From NCBI RefSeq assembly GCF_000003815.2, contig NC_049984.1:8018197-8082196 (forward strand): a stretch of DNA of 64,000 nucleotides, in the 5' to 3' direction. Both the position numbers and the translations under genes were made by a program. Shown here one piece after another: positions 7,003 to 64,000 of the stretch. The DNA is from Branchiostoma floridae (taxonomy: Eukaryota; Chordata; Leptocardii; Amphioxiformes; Branchiostomatidae). The notes below the pieces were generated by a model. It searched no databases. It was not told where the DNA came from and saw only the letters and a list, made by a program, of their open reading frames with translations. Position 1 is the stretch's first letter, and each line of letters starts with the position of its first letter.

Positions 7003-7580
7003 CGAGGGGCGTGCAATAAGTAATGGTCCTGACCCACTTCCAGTTGTCTGATCTAAATGAAATTTTGTATGTGTAATAATTCATATCTCTATGGGTTATG
7101 TTGCAAAAGACAGCTCTGAACTAATTGTGGTTTCTGATTTACTGGTGTTTGAACTTAGTCAGGTGCGAAATGGACCAGGTGTGAAATGGAACCAGTTGAG
7201 TGTCGCGCAGTGATCCGGTTTTTGTATTTGAAAGGACGCACACCAAAGAAGACTTTTGATGAAATAAATGAAACTTATGGTGATGATGCCCCATCATATG
7301 ACCTTGTAAAACGCTGGCATCCTGAATTCAAACGTGGCTGGAAGTCTGTGGAAACAGCTCCCAGACCTGGTCGTCCCTCTTGTGCCATTGATGAGGCATC
7401 AGTTGGAGGACCAACCTGGGGTGTCCTACAAAATCGGTGTCCAGAGCTGCATCAAACGATGGGAGAAATGCATAACTCTGGGTGATTCCTATGAAGAGAA
7501 AGACTAATAACTGTGCCAAGTTTCATTAATCTCCTGCTATGGGAAATGGGTCAGGACCATTACTAATTGCACGCCCCTCG
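7003..7580 (+). mobile_element. Internally deleted mariner-type transposon
   Basis: A 578-bp element with ~40-bp terminal inverted repeats. The left end starts CGAGGGGCGTGCAATAAGTA; the right end, read on the other strand, starts CGAGGGGCGTGCAATTAGTA. Only about two mismatches occur in the first 42 bases. Both ends are flanked by TA (7001-7002 and 7581-7582), the target duplication expected for Tc1/mariner. Inside are the transposase N-terminus and the extreme C-terminus joined by a deletion that removed most of the catalytic domain, so it is non-autonomous. A full mariner is about 1.3 kb. Confidence 0.88.
7186..7507 (+). pseudogene. Mariner transposase remnant, catalytic core deleted
   Basis: The frame from ATG 7186 encodes ~73 residues typical of the mariner paired-like DNA-binding N-terminus: FLYLKGRTPKKTFDEINETY (residues ~12-31), then YDLVKRWHPEFKRGWKSVE and the inter-domain linker motif APRPGRPS. 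After codon ~75 the frame leaves the family and stops at 7485. A second frame (7430-7507), shifted by one base, reads VQSCIKRWEKCITLGDSYEE and a stop, which is the usual mariner C-terminus. The DDD catalytic region between them is gone. It cannot make active transposase; the DNA-binding part might still bind the element's own ends if expressed. Confidence 0.85.
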
Positions 7581-13529: not shown

Positions 13530-13631
13530 TATTTCGATACTTCCCACTAAAAAGGGGGAAAGGGATAAACTTCCTCGAACGGACGTTCACAGTAGGAGGC
13601 AGGTGAGAAAATGTGGATACAGCTGCATCAT

Positions 13632-13769
13632 GTGCAGGAGTGTACAGGTGCATCATGTGCAGGAGTGTACAGGTGCATCAGGTGCAGGAGTGTACAGGTG
13701 CATCAGGTGCAGGAGTGTACAGGTGCATCAGGTGCAGGTGTGTACAGGTGCATCAGGTGTAGGCGATTT
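13632..13769 (+). repeat. 25-bp minisatellite, ~5.5 copies
   Basis: The unit begins GTGCAGGAGTGTACAGGTGC and ends ATCAG (or ATCAT). Copies start at 13632, 13657, 13682, 13707 and 13732, with a partial copy at 13757. Copies are almost identical, so the array is young or homogenised. A Cys-rich open frame spanning it is an artefact of three 25-bp units making 25 codons. Confidence 0.92.
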
Positions 13770-24320: not shown

Positions 24321-24617
24321 CTCAAAGCCTGATGGTCCTGCGGCATTTATTTTGCTCTCGAAAAGTCAACTCATCCCTAGGTACAAAAACAACAATCGAC
24401 AATTTTTAAAACAAAGTACGACTAGTGGGTAACAAGACAAACAAGCCCCGCCAGTCGCCCCGGGGTGTATTTGAGGGAAGGACGTGTCCCGTGAGGCACA
24501 CTCACTGTCCTGTCTCGCCGGAGGAAGGTTGTCCCGGAGCTGCGGTGTCGTCCTGCCGTGATCTACTGTCAGCTGCGCCGCCTTCACTCACCGCCCTCTC
24601 CTGAACTTGTCACCGCC

Positions 24618-25862
24618 ATGGCCGCCCTTGGGAGCCTCTACACACGTTACGGTGACCCTTACGGCTACAGAACCGGCCCGACCTACTTCTTCACCTCGGC
24701 GTCGGCAGCCGACTCGTCCCCCTACCCCATGGGGGCGTCCCCCTACCCGCACGGGCTGTACGGGGACGTGGAGAGACCAGAGAGGCACCAGAAGCCGCCG
24801 TACTCCTACATCGCGCTGATCGCCATGGCCATCCGCTCCAGCCCGGACCAGAAGATCACCCTGAACGGCATCTACCAGTGGATCATGGACCGGTTCCCGT
24901 ACTACCACGACAACAAGCAGGGATGGCAGAACTCCATCCGACACAACCTGTCTCTGAACGACTGCTTCGTCAAGGTGCCTCGGGAGAAGGGCAAGCCGGG
25001 CAAGGGCAATTATTGGACTCTGAACCAGGACTGTGAAGAGATGTTTGAAAACGGAAACTACAGGAGAAGGAAGAGGAAACCAAAGACGCCCTACAAACCG
25101 GCTGAGGGTCCTGACAGCAAAGACGACGCCTCAGACCTCTCAGCCAAACGGCCCGCAGACGACCCCGCGACAAACGTCGAGGCTTCAGAAGACGGGGAGG
25201 ACCAGTCCGATGTTCTAGCACGAAACGCGGACTCCACACATACAAACGATAACGATTCTTCAACAGAAGCCGACGATGGTCGCGTTTCGGCCTCCCCACC
25301 CCTGTCTGGTGTGTCGGAAACCTACGGAAAGTCTTCCACGGCTCGGAAAACGCCTGTAGAACTGAGAGCCACCGCTACAACATCGTCCCGACAGACCAGC
25401 CCAGCGCCGTCCGAACCTGGACTCTTCAGTATAGAGAGACTGCTAGCTCCCGACAATAGGACCAAACCGACACCACCGGTCAGCAGATATCATTTGTCCG
25501 GAGAACGAGTCAACATCAGCCCGAGAACGTCGCCAGCCAGCCTCGGCACCACAGGGTCAGCTGTAAACATCCTCCGGAGTAACATAGTCCTGCACGCCGC
25601 CGCCAGGACACCGACTCATCTGATGAACTCTCCTCGGCAGATCCCAGCCATTCCTCCGCCGGCTTTAGCTCCCATCCCCGGTATGACCCCGTCCCATTCC
25701 ACCGCAGCTTTGTACCCCACATTCCCGCCCCTCCGCTATCCCCACCTCCCCTCCCACCCGTACCCAGCCCTCCCCCTCCCAAGCTTCCCCGTCCCCCTGT
25801 CGTCTTGGACATTCACAGAAGCAGACGTCAAGGCCAAGAAGACTGTTCTAGTCGGTTACTAA
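24618..25862 (+). CDS. FoxL1: Forkhead transcription factor FoxL1
   Basis: Intronless gene of 414 codons for a nuclear DNA-binding protein. The forkhead domain spans residues ~58-155: it opens [14 protein letters not shown], has recognition helix [10 protein letters not shown] (105-114), then [14 protein letters not shown] and ends [26 protein letters not shown] together with [12 protein letters not shown] marks the FoxL1 class; FoxC instead has ECFVKVPRD and FENGSF. A basic nuclear-localisation run follows. An eh1-like FSIERLLA at 270-277 should recruit Groucho/TLE, as FSIDSILA does in vertebrate FOXL1. The rest is low-complexity: acidic/Ser-rich 165-240 and Pro-rich 340-395. I chose ATG 24618 because ACCGCCATGG is a strong Kozak context; an in-frame ATG at 24558 would add 20 non-conserved residues. 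In vertebrates FoxL1 acts in visceral mesoderm. Codon GC is far above flanking DNA. Confidence 0.94.
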
Positions 25863-35531: not shown

Positions 35532-35549
35532 CTATTTGAGGTGCACAAT

Positions 35550-35589
35550 GATTGGCCCGAAAAGTATGACGTCACTCCCCCTATAAATA
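35550..35589 (+). promoter_or_regulatory. CCAAT-CRE-TATA promoter, copy 1
   Basis: Inverted CCAAT (ATTGG, 35550-35554), perfect CRE TGACGTCA (35567-35574) and TATAAATA (35582-35589) are ordered as in a compact pol II promoter, so transcription should run rightward from about 35610-35620. Confidence 0.6.
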
Positions 35590-36279
35590 AGAGATGCGCG
35601 CATGAATATATCATTCTTCTGTGTGCTGGCCCTCCGGCAAAGTCTGAAGCTACCAGCGTACGTCCTTCATCGCCCCAGCGCAGAAAACTTGCCGGGAAAA
35701 GGCCACGTCGTTGCCGGGAAAAGGCCACGAGAGTGCCGGCGGGAGACTCGCTACTACACGATGCGGTGCAGCAGCTCAAGCTCGTGACGGCAGCTCGTAC
35801 TCTCCCGGGTATTGTATCAGAGATACACGGTACCACGCAAGGTTTGGTCGAACACAGGAAAGCACTATCTGAGCCCGGTCTGGAGATTTACTTGTTCGTT
35901 TTGTGGTATGGTGTTGTGGTGAGACATGTTTGATATCTGTAGTCTAGGCCTGTTGCAGGGCTCGCAGAGTCATGTTTCTGCCGTACGGAAGAACTTCACG
36001 TTTTTGCAATTTTTTCCGGTTGACTGTCACATAGTTTCATTGTCGCGTTTTGTCTGTTGCCTGTTTGCTGAGTGTTTTGTGAACGCTTTGTAAACGTTGT
36101 ATGCAGGTCCGACGGGAGAGAGCTACCTTTAATATTTAGAATGTTTCTTTTCAGTTTTTGGTATATACGATCGCATCCTCTGTTGAATTTTGCTGTGGCC
36201 ACCTTTTGACGACGCTGATTAGTGGTGCTGTTTAGGAGTTTGCTATTTGTGTGTTTTTCTTGTTTTATGAAAGTGTTAC

Positions 36280-36830: not shown

Positions 36831-37386
36831 GTGGTTTTTGTTACGTACATGTTATCGTTATACGTTTTCGTTTGTCAAGTTTAACTTTTTGGATTGCGTG
36901 GGTGTTGCCCGTACGTAAGGTGATTGTCGTGTGCGTGGCCTATTTTTACCAAGCTTAGCGTTTGGTTGTTGAGCATGTATGTACGGGGAGCACGCATGGC
37001 CTAGGACTGTTCATGTTATCGTGGCTTGCCCACCTTTGAGCGCTAGGCGGGGGGATGTCGAGTGCGTATGGTGTGGATATTGTTACGGCTGGATTTTGTG
37101 TGTAATTTCGTCAGCGGTATCGATAATTGTGTTTTGTTTTCCGCATAGTTCTCAGGAACCGGAACGTGCTGGTTCACCCGTGACGTTCTCCCCCACCCGT
37201 AACGACCCTTGTAAGAAGTTTCGGACTTCAGGGATCTTCAGATGCGGCAGGTACGACAAAAGATGTAGCAGCAAGTGGTGGCGCAGGAACAGCAGCCTGT
37301 CAGCCTCTCTTAGGCCCCCTCACCCTCCTCGCCATTCCGGACACTTGAGTGCCACAAGGAAAGGACAGCTCATGAAGACGGTACAG

Positions 37387-37850
37387 CCCGGGCAGGCACC
37401 GGCGAGTGCCGCGGGTAGAGCTCACGAAGATGGTAAGGCCCGGGCAGGCACCGGCGAGTGTCGCGGGTAGAGCTCACGAACGACGAAGATGGTAAGGCCC
37501 GGGCAGGCACCGGCGAGTGTCGCGGGTAGAGCTCACGAACGACGAAGATGGTAAGGCCCGGGCAGGCACCGGCGAGTGTCGCGGGTAGAGCTCACGAAGA
37601 TGGTAAGGCCCGGGCAGGCACCGGCGAGTGTCGCGGGTAGAGCTCACGAAGATGGTAAGACCCGGGCAGGCACCGGCGAGTGTCGCGGGTAGAGCTCACG
37701 AAGATGGCCATGGTAAGACCCGGGCAGGCACCGGCGAGTGTCGCGGGTAGAGCTCACGAAGATGGTAAGACCCGGGCAGGCACCGGCGAGTGTCGCGGGT
37801 AGAGCTCACGAAGTTGGTAAGACCCGGGCAGGCACCGGCGAGTGTCGCGG
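37387..37850 (+). repeat. 52-bp minisatellite, nine copies
   Basis: The unit starts CCCGGGCAGGCACCGGCGAG and continues through GTCGCGGGTAGAGCTCACGA to AGATGGTAAGG. Copies start at 37387, 37439, 37498, 37557, 37609, 37661, 37719, 37771 and 37823. The spacing is 52 bp except where 6-7 bp are inserted (ACGACGA-type duplication or CCATGG). A degenerate relative is near 37970. Copies are ~95% alike. Each unit contains TAG and 52 is not a multiple of three, so the array is not protein-coding. Confidence 0.93.
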
Positions 37851-38493
37851 GAAGATATTGATCTCGGTTCAGATCAGTTCCGTTCATACACAGAGAGGTG
37901 GCACCAGCGTCTTCACATTGAACTCAACCAAATTTAAAACCTCCGTGAGTTTACGAAATTGAAATACCCAGGCAGGCACAGGAAGTGCCGCAGAAGAATA
38001 TGGAGCTCACGGTGGATGTTTTAGGAAGGAAAACGTACTCGTACTTCGCCGTAAAAGGTTTTGAAGACCGCAAGCCAGAAATCATATCGCCATGAGATCG
38101 AGAAGGCATTGAATCCACAAAATTGTCTTGTTATATAAGGACGGTCGCACTAAATAGGTACCAAGGGCAAGGCATATTACACTGGAAGGTATACAAGTGC
38201 GAATTTTCTAGGCAGTACGCAAGAAACACATTCCTTAACCACGTGTGGGACAATATTCTTAAGAAGTAGAAAAAAAAAAAAAAAAAAACACGTTACATCA
38301 ATTCATCGTTAATTGACGACTGATTGTGTTATGGATGTATTACACTCCTTTACGTTTGGGACCGCATTGTAAATGTGTGCATCAAAGCTGTTTGTACATA
38401 CTAGTATGTAAATACTTTTTGTTTTGTGACCGCATCTGAACTGTGAGCAGCGACACCTGTCCTGCAGTACAATGTGAACCAGTCAGAATTGCC

Positions 38494-40415: not shown

Positions 40416-40763
40416 ACGACGATTTCCGCATCACTCATACTGGAGGGCCAATAATTACGCACCTCAAAAAGGATACTATTTGAGGTGCACAATGATTGGC
40501 CCGAAAAGTATGACGTCACTCCCCCTATAAATAAGAGATGCGCGCATGAATATATCATTCTTCTGTGTGCTGGCCCTCCGGCAAAGTCTGGAGCCTGAAG
40601 CGTCCCACCCACCCGCCCATCGACAAGTTTTCTGCTTTCTGTGGAATTAGGCATCTGCTTCAGGATGGTCGCTTTAGCACATAGGTGACTTTAGGCTCCA
40701 GACGACGATTTCCGCATCACTCATACTGGAGGGCCAATAATTACGCACCTCAAAAAGGATACT
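40416..40763. mobile_element. Second copy of the promoter module, bracketed by 63-bp direct repeats
   Basis: A 63-bp block starting GACGACGATTTCCGCATCAC occurs at 40416-40478 and again, almost unchanged, at 40701-40763. Between them lies the 115-bp promoter module (40476-40590) and ~110 bp of unique sequence. The 63-bp block is itself a diverged reverse copy of the module's start (GGGCCAATAATTACGCACCT against the reverse of GAGGTGCACAATGATTGGCC), so the left block and module form a head-to-head inverted pair. Confidence 0.6.
40494..40533 (+). promoter_or_regulatory. CCAAT-CRE-TATA promoter, copy 2
   Basis: Identical to copy 1 over 115 bp: ATTGG at 40494-40498, TGACGTCA at 40511-40518, TATAAATA at 40526-40533. 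Downstream sequence differs completely after GCAAAGTCTG, so the two promoters would drive different transcripts. Confidence 0.55.
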
Positions 40764-49310: not shown

Positions 49311-50306
49311 AAGTACATTTAGCAAGAAGTCAACTCTATCATAAATACATCTCTGAAATGACAGATTCCCAACATTAATTCATTTTCAATTACTAGTAGT
49401 TTTTATGTATTGCAGATTAAGCAAGAGAAATAAATTAACATTCACACAAGTGTAATTATAGTATATACTGAAGAAATGTCCAGTATCCATTATTGCTGAT
49501 AGGAATGTGTAAGCAACCTTCCAACCCTCCACTTTTTTTATCTTAATTGTAGTCCCATGAAATTCTCACATTACAATAAAGTACAGGTATGCTAAACAGA
49601 ATGGCTTGCCATGAGAGTTAGCCAGCCACAGGACTTCATAGCCCAAAAAGAATCTCTTGGACAGACTAAGTGCAGATGCTAACATTGAATATATTGTCAA
49701 GAAGCTTTCCTTGAAGTGCGGTGCCTTTGATGCTGCAAATTACAATACTATTGAGTAAAAACTATTGTTGAACCATACACTTGTGCAACATAAAGTGTTT
49801 ATGTTATCAGAAGGCACTGGTCATCTGTTGTCCAATGAGCCTGTCAATCAAAAGATGATTGGACCAATGGCAGGCCATTTATACCAGATACACCTTCCAA
49901 AGAGATGATGTGTCTGGTAAAGTCTGGTACATGTAGGTACCTACCAACTCAACTCCAAAATAATGCCACCTTTCCAGAAGCTCATGACTTAATTATGATG
50001 ATAAGTAGATATCTAAGAGATTTTTCATAAAATCAAGATAAGACATTTGTCTATGCAACCTATCAGATCTAGTGCAATAAATAAGCTATTTACATAGTGC
50101 TCTAAATTCTACAATTGGAAATCTCTTTTTTTTCCACAAAGAATGCAACACATGATTTTCTAGCATATATCAATAGGTAATTTTGAAACTAATGATTGAC
50201 ATCAATTTTCTCCTATTCAGGTACTTATCAGAGGCTTTTCCTCATTGGTCACTTTTTGTGATGACACCTGTGCTAACTAGTAATGTTGTCTCTCCGGGGT
50301 CACTTC

Positions 50307-50434
50307 TGATTGGCCAGCCTACAGCTCTGGAGCGTCCTGATTGGTTGATCAGGCAGAGGGATGTCATGTCTGATTGGCCAGCCTACAGAACTGGGCTGTC
50401 CTCATTGGTTGATCAGGCAGAGGGATGTGCTCTC
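50307..50434 (-). repeat. 64-bp tandem duplication at the GMDS stop codon and 3' UTR
   Basis: Two adjacent 64-bp copies (50307-50370 and 50371-50434), each starting TCTGATTGGCCAGCCTACAG and ending TTGATCAGGCAGAGGGATGT plus three bases. The right copy includes the last codons and stop of the distal GMDS terminal exon; the left copy therefore carries a decoy of the same codons in the 3' UTR. Confidence 0.85.
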
Positions 50435-50475
50435 ATCAGTTCAATGTCAGCATCCACCATCTCGGCCACTAGGGC
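50413..50475 (-). CDS. GMDS: GMDS terminal coding exon, distal version
   Basis: Last exon of GDP-mannose 4,6-dehydratase, the cytosolic NADP-dependent short-chain dehydrogenase that starts GDP-fucose synthesis. On the minus strand a strong pyrimidine tract (CTGTTTTCTGTTTGCAG) precedes 21 phase-0 codons, ALVAEMVDADIELMRAHPSA and a stop. The vertebrate enzyme ends with the same pattern: LV.EMV.AD.ELMR..P.A. Splicing from the 51180-51248 exon gives VSFE-ALVAEMV. It lies 455 bp beyond an alternative terminal exon of identical length. The catalytic residues lie in upstream exons not seen here. Confidence 0.85.
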   Translation of the reverse strand, partial: ALVAEMVDADIELMRAHPSA

Positions 50476-50549
50476 CTGCAAACAGAAAACAGAAATAGCA
50501 TTTTAAACGATATCAATGGCGTTTTTTGTGTGTGAAAAGAAGCCCCGAC

Positions 50550-50645
50550 CCAATCCAAGCTGAGGTTGGTGAGGATGCCCCATTTTCTGTCCGCACTCCC
50601 AATAAGGTCATGGTCTTCGCCACCAACCTCTGCTTGGAGAGTAAC
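50550..50645. mobile_element. Small foldback element inside the GMDS terminal intron
   Basis: The left arm is AATCCAAGCTGAGGTTGGTG; the right arm on the other strand is CTCCAAGCAGAGGTTGGTGG. Same family as 31508-31684. It sits between the two alternative GMDS terminal exons. Confidence 0.6.
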
Positions 50646-50867
50646 CCCAATCCAAGTTTACCTGAAGGTTAGTACTGAAATACAATGTAAGAAACAAAGG
50701 AGAGGCAGACATAGAAAACAAAAACAAAAATGGATGTCGTGCAGAGCGTGCTACAAGTAGACAACACAGTGTGATGACCTTTAAACCTTAAACACCAGCC
50801 AATCACAACTCCACTGACATATACTGCAGTCTACCTTGATACAAGACACTGTCCATGATTGGTCAGT

Positions 50868-50930
50868 TCAAGCACGAGGGTGTTCCTTCATCAACTGAAT
50901 GTCAGACTCTACCATTTCTTTCACCATCTC
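50868..50930 (-). CDS. GMDS: GMDS terminal coding exon, proximal version
   Basis: On the minus strand, after an acceptor-like TTATTGTTGCTGAGCTAG, 21 phase-0 codons read EMVKEMVESDIQLMKEHPRA and a stop. This is a second version of the GMDS C-terminus with the same length and phase as the exon at 50413-50475. About half of the residues are shared (MV, EMV, D-I, LM, HP-A pattern). Differences are mostly conservative or synonymous-like, so both seem to have been held under protein-level constraint. The pyrimidine tract is weaker than that of the distal exon. Similarity continues a little into the 3' UTR (CTGTCC..ATTGGT), supporting tandem exon duplication. Which one is used, or both, cannot be told from sequence. 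Confidence 0.8.
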   Translation of the reverse strand, partial: EMVKEMVESDIQLMKEHPRA

Positions 50931-51179
50931 CTAGCTCAGCAACAATAAAATAGAAGGATGATGGAGAGAGGTACAACAAAAGAAGTATCCTATACACAAG
51001 TAACAGAAATTTATCACACAAGACATATTTTCCAGACATCAAAATAGAGTGCAATGTTGCAAGTAAGCTGGAAAGATAAAGGTATATTACAACAGAATTC
51101 TACAACATTGAATCCTCTTCAAAATGTATAATCTGAAAGCCAATCTAAAGGACAACAAGAGAAAAAAAAATCTACACAC

Positions 51180-51248
51180 CTCAAAGGACACTGATGGCTC
51201 CCATCCCAGTATCTTCTTCGCCTTGGTACTGTCTCCTTGTAGGAAGTC
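51180..51248 (-). CDS. GMDS: GMDS penultimate coding exon
   Basis: On the minus strand, TTTTGTCTGCAG precedes 23 phase-0 codons ending GAG before the donor GTGTGTAG. The translation starts DFLQGDSTKAKKILGWEP and ends SVSFE. This is the GMDS segment whose FLQGD-TKAK-L-W-P motif is nearly invariant in the family; it lies close to the C-terminus of the ~370-residue enzyme. Intron phase is 0 on both sides, so it can join either downstream terminal exon without frame change. Upstream exons with the Rossmann fold and the catalytic Thr/Glu/Tyr/Lys residues must lie at higher coordinates. None was recognised up to 64 kb, implying long introns. Confidence 0.9.
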
Positions 51249-63920: not shown

Positions 63921-64000
63921 TAGCCCCTAGGAAAAGGCACTTTACACCTGACTCAGGTGAAAAGTAATCCCTAGCTTCAGTTAGGGATGTCCTCTTGATG
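63921..64000 (+). repeat. SINE family copy 6, cut by the window end
   Basis: GGAAAAGGCACTTTACACCT, then GACTCAGGTGAAAAGTAATC and AGTTAGGGATGTCCTCTTGA match the early body of the family. The copy continues past 64000. Confidence 0.65.

Follow-up and report, generated by a model that had tools for sequence, protein, structure and literature searches.

Two homologous, probably alternative, terminal coding exons at the 3' end of a GMDS gene in Branchiostoma floridae

GDP-mannose 4,6-dehydratase (GMDS) catalyzes the first committed step in the de novo synthesis of GDP-fucose and thereby feeds, for example, Notch fucosylation. The 64,000-nucleotide stretch of the Branchiostoma floridae genome analyzed here, referred to as the window, carries the last exons of a GMDS gene on its minus strand, and the final coding exon occurs there in two versions. 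Do both versions serve as alternative ends of the same enzyme, or is one of them a relic, a regulatory cassette, or part of another gene? The exons in question are the following:

51180..51248, minus strand: shared penultimate GMDS coding exon, DFLQGDSTKAKKILGWEPSVSFE, 23 codons, phase 0 at the donor GAG/GTGTGT
50868..50930, minus strand: terminal coding exon A (proximal), EMVKEMVESDIQLMKEHPRA followed by a stop; acceptor TGAGCTAG/GAG, weak
50413..50475, minus strand: terminal coding exon B (distal), ALVAEMVDADIELMRAHPSA followed by a stop; acceptor TTTCTGTTTTCTGTTTGCAG/GCC, strong

The penultimate exon is 69 nt long and runs from 51248 to 51180 on the minus strand. Exons A and B measure 63 nt each, made up of 20 codons and TGA, and both are preceded by AG. 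They adjoin one another across a spacer of 392 nt, agree in length and phase, and each contains its own stop. This layout reproduces what a sequence-only reading of the locus had described, namely two minus-strand exons at these positions, both in phase 0 and both of 21 codons including the stop. Because a stop codon closes each exon, a choice between them would give the protein alternative C-termini. Only 43 residues of each GMDS form, the penultimate exon plus one tail, are encoded within the 64-kb window; the remaining gene may lie past position 64000, or the locus may be a gene fragment.

Both tails match the C-terminus of GMDS, as the sequence-only reading had also held. The penultimate peptide joined to A matches human GMDS chains across all 43 residues with a best E of 7.1e-12, and the same peptide joined to B does so with a best E of 3.2e-12. 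The alignments of both forms extend to the final residue of human GMDS. The Pfam model PF16363 scores 30.7 bits for the A form and 27.3 bits for the B form, just exceeding its cut-off of 27. TIGR01472 gives 37.8 bits (A) and 35.8 bits (B), far below its whole-protein cut-off, as expected for 43 residues. With either tail, the matches to both models fall at the C-terminal end of the family, and the peculiarity of this locus is that two such tails accompany one gene body. The A form additionally matched 100 phage records by tblastn.

The two exons are clearly related to one another. They are identical at 41 of 63 nucleotides, while, apart from A itself and B, no ungapped 63-mer on either strand of the window matches exon A at more than 32 of 63 positions, which rules out chance likeness. 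Identity at codon positions 1, 2, and 3 is 15, 16, and 10 of 21, respectively, with the stop codon counted, a pattern that coding constraint predicts. At the protein level, the tails share 11 of 20 residues, among them V3, M6, V7, and D10, and differ at 9 of 20, in line with the earlier estimate that about half of the positions differ. Charged residues are more numerous in A, with E1, K4, E16, and R19 in place of A1, A4, A16, and S19 in B.

Outside the coding part, homology between A and B is marginal. The 60 nt upstream of the two acceptors align no better than shuffled sequence, with 1160 of 2000 shuffles reaching the observed score. In the 40 nt past the stops, a 15-column match was equalled by 13 of 2000 shuffles and by 134 of 6000 random 40-mers drawn from the window. 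When 80 nt past the stops were compared, the best match paired a different part of the B 3' UTR and was equalled by 48 of 2000 shuffles. Given these shuffle and random 40-mer controls, noncoding homology is a weak mark of recent duplication. This suggests an old duplication, after which the coding part was retained while the rest drifted.

The sequence-only reading took the intact frames of both exons as a sign that both are used. By itself this argument is weak, since a simulation that placed 22 random differences in either exon (100,000 cases each) left 20% of the copies of A and 27% of the copies of B intact. The same simulation is far more telling when the peptides are considered. Intact exons whose identity and BLOSUM62 score equalled or exceeded the observed values made up 9e-5 of the copies of A and 7e-5 of those of B.

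A second comparison was made with a profile of prokaryotic Gmd tails. The loci were fetched by search patterns confined to the penultimate-exon peptide, and the best 80 of 302 relatives, ranked by likeness to the B form, were taken; the profile covers the first 14 tail positions in 79 of these 80 loci, one tail being too short. Its scores are 20.3 for A, 24.2 for the human tail, and 28.5 for B, on a scale that the B-based ranking of the set biases towards B. When 20,000 random copies were made from B (5500 of them intact), one reached the score of A; the same number made from A (3815 intact) yielded none that reached the score of B. Residues M6 and D10, present in both A and B, are invariant in 79 of 79 prokaryotic Gmd tails. 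Eight of the nine differences between A and B fall within the tabulated positions 1 to 18, seven of them at variable positions and one at a conserved position. This exception is position 2, where A has M, and Gmd tails have L in 95% and M in 4% of cases.

Taken together, the simulation and the Gmd profile identify A and B as apparently constrained coding sequence. Purifying selection on both is well supported by these comparisons, and A and B are very probably real coding exons. Support for constraint comes from the peptides, the intact frames being weak evidence. A formal dN/dS comparison between the exons, which the same reading had put forward as a check, provides no support: NG86 returned a dN of 0.324 with dS undefined through saturation, and the maximum-likelihood estimate was a dN of 2.70 with a dS of 1.95. 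The model that best accounts for these observations is that the last coding exon of GMDS was tandemly duplicated long ago and that both copies have probably been kept under purifying selection as alternative terminal exons. Alternative use of A and B is likely.

Splice signals were scored with rough weighting schemes, and ranked among the 8331 GTs and 7430 AGs in the window. The shared donor at 51180 lies in the top 0.8% of the 8331 GTs; between 51260 and 50941, no other donor exceeds a score of 0.9. The expectation of an acceptor before each exon holds in so far as AG is present at both, but their strengths are unequal. The acceptor of B scores 8.5, in the top 0.08% of the 7430 AGs, whereas that of A scores 1.4, in the top 6%. 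An extra AG 4 nt upstream of the acceptor of A scores −3.4, and its use would shift the frame. Such inequality may be the pattern of an optional proximal exon and a default distal one, and may also be that of a fading proximal copy.

The latter possibility is the alternative that survives best, although it is unlikely. It holds that B is the sole working last exon and that A is a relic, which either lost its use recently or is spliced in by error only. The weak acceptor with its competing upstream AG fits this description, as do the uncommon M that A carries at position 2 and its profile score, which is below that of B (20.3 versus 28.5). So does the lower identity of A to the human GMDS tail, 10 of 20 residues compared with 13 of 20 for B, in alignments that covered 20 residues of A and 19 of B, the first residue of B being different. 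Moreover, a recently disused copy would present an identical sequence picture. Against it, the conserved positions retained in A and the conservative nature of its changes are unlike free drift, and its stop, length, and frame are all intact.

The sequence beyond the stop of A offers several candidate signals for the end of an A transcript:

50780..50785, minus strand: candidate non-canonical poly(A) hexamer TTTAAA, 83 nt past the A stop, with GT-rich sequence behind it
50833..50837, minus strand: weak donor candidate AAG/GT, 33 nt past the A stop; scoring 0.91 and ranked in the top 6% of the 8331 GTs
50660..50664, minus strand: moderate donor candidate CAG/GT (CAG/GTAAAC), 206 nt past the A stop; scoring 3.64 and ranked in the top 1.6% of the 8331 GTs

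Minus-strand sequence from 50870 to 47500 contains no AATAAA; a TATAAA is located at 49883, after exon B. The candidate donor at 50833..50837 would permit splicing from A to B. The A form could therefore end at its own poly(A) site or be spliced to B, and with these signals both are possible. An RNA fold upstream of B was considered as a splice switch and is unsupported (z −1.06, with 25 of 200 shuffles folding equally), and a search for structured RNA with Rfam at gathering scores returned no known family.

If A and B are alternative terminal exons, the default product would arise by joining the donor at 51180 to the strong acceptor of B, removing an intron of 704 nt. Under regulation, the same donor would instead use the acceptor of A, which is weak but closer, and an intron of 249 nt would be removed. 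Upon inclusion of A, translation would stop within A and the RNA would be cleaved before B at a weak poly(A) site. By the other route, A would be spliced to B, and B would then act as 3' UTR. The resulting isoforms would have the body of the enzyme in common and exchange their last 20 residues, mostly at variable positions. The expected effect would be fine tuning of the protein surface, such as its stability, partners, or subunit contacts, and not a new reaction.

The moderate donor after A opens a different route, in which A is a stop-carrying cassette: splicing from 50662 to B would expose the transcript to nonsense-mediated decay and so set the level of GMDS. A donor candidate 206 nt past the stop, ranked in the top 1.6% of GTs, agrees with this scheme under the distance rule for nonsense-mediated decay, and so does the weak acceptor of A. 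Yet a poison exon has no need for a conserved protein sequence, and the A peptide scores as a Gmd tail; the 50662 donor, in addition, is merely moderate. This explanation is very unlikely.

The weakest explanation, slightly less probable still, assigns A or B to a second tandem GMDS gene or fragment transcribed as a separate unit; the window does show only the last GMDS exons, with the whole gene out of view, but the 69-nt penultimate exon is single-copy in the window (the runner-up ungapped 69-mer matches at 35 of 69), and tblastn of a human GMDS sequence found three exons only, with all remaining matches at E > 5. Were B the end of another gene, the upstream exons of that gene would have to fit into the 392 nt separating A from B. 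The tblastn and 69-mer searches give no evidence for a second GMDS gene inside the window.

The surroundings of the two exons contain repeats of several kinds, two of which touch the locus itself:

50554..50638, minus strand: inverted repeat between A and B, with 27-nt arms that are 81% complementary
50299..50426, minus strand: 64-bp tandem duplication, which begins in the last codons of B and extends into its 3' UTR

The stretch 50655-50622 resembles 31695-31663, about 19 kb away, with 86% identity over 35 columns, and the inverted-repeat region between A and B is perhaps the remnant of a mobile element. Seven of the 24 CCAATCA/CCAATGA motifs in the window lie within 50000-50999, four of them inside the 64-bp duplication. 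Elsewhere in the window, a helix-turn-helix domain of the Mos1-transposase type (HTH_48, E 1e-10; 7183-7482, plus strand) probably represents a mariner remnant. A direct repeat of 119 bp with 99% identity, at 35532-35650 and 40476-40594, 5 kb apart, is probably a recent copy of an element. Two tandem arrays are also present, one of 9 copies of a G+C-rich 52-bp unit (37367-37855) and one of 5.8 copies of a 25-bp unit with 96% matches (13618-13763).

About 25 kb from the 3' end of GMDS lies a single-exon forkhead gene on the plus strand (24591-25862; PF00250, E 1.1e-41). By its signature we take this gene to be FoxL1-like; its best match among solved structures is FoxC2. FoxC, F, L1, and Q1 form a cluster in amphioxus and humans, and on human chromosome 6 the listing places GMDS after FOXC1, as described in PMC1634998. 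The position of the forkhead gene fits an old linkage between GMDS and this Fox cluster.

Alternative C-termini encoded by duplicated exons are known from other genes. KRAS tails act in membrane targeting, and in GMDS the tail terminates a soluble enzyme. Exons 4A and 4B of KRAS resemble A and B in that each of the two alternative last exons contains its own end of the coding sequence (PMC9882654). In the same preprint, exon 4A is proposed to derive from NRAS exon 4 via exon shuffling, whereas for the GMDS pair local tandem copying offers a simpler explanation. In the account of human tandem duplicated exon substitution in PMC9741552, 77 of 236 events swap C-termini, which is above expectation, and the changes are mostly conservative, with exposed residues more frequent. 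These C-terminal swap events resemble A and B in consisting of adjacent homologous coding exons with mostly conservative changes. In contrast to that human set, from whose main text GMDS is absent, A and B are known from sequence alone. Homologous copies are likewise found as the 3'-terminal exons of tropomyosin in human, fly, and worm (PMC9741552), and alternative 3'-terminal coding exons like A and B occur in the fly genes for capping protein beta and myosin heavy chain (PMC3228551), all of these encoding unrelated proteins. Terminal exon pairs, as treated in PMC3228551, are often explained by multiple poly(A) sites or by differential inclusion, and their tally is kept separate from that of internal mutually exclusive exons; the prediction criteria given there resemble the features of A and B.

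In the literature searched, no paper paired GMDS with 'alternative last exon', and none brought together GDP-mannose, amphioxus, and fucose. GMDS is likewise absent from the main texts, supplements excluded, of PMC9741552 and PMC5740500. Among the matches listed by broader exon-literature searches, it appears only in PMC2885996. Amphioxus and GMDS occur together in four of the papers matched, among them PMC1634998. The sequence-only reading had suggested that the C-terminus lies near the oligomer surface in this enzyme family; structural work on GMDS was looked for in the literature, and no paper was found. Tandem homologous terminal exons are already known as a class, and as none was found described for GMDS in this literature, the GMDS case appears new.

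What two tails might do for GMDS is speculative, as is any functional difference between them. It is conceivable, though doubtful, that cephalochordate GMDS exists in two forms whose exchangeable, splicing-regulated tails differ in stability, subunit contacts, or product control and thereby tune the supply of GDP-fucose by tissue or stage, a switch that vertebrates would have lost or never gained. If a single tail is used, the locus would illustrate the slow decay of an exon and hold little general interest. If both tails are constrained alternatives, it would provide a natural experiment on the role of the enzyme tail.
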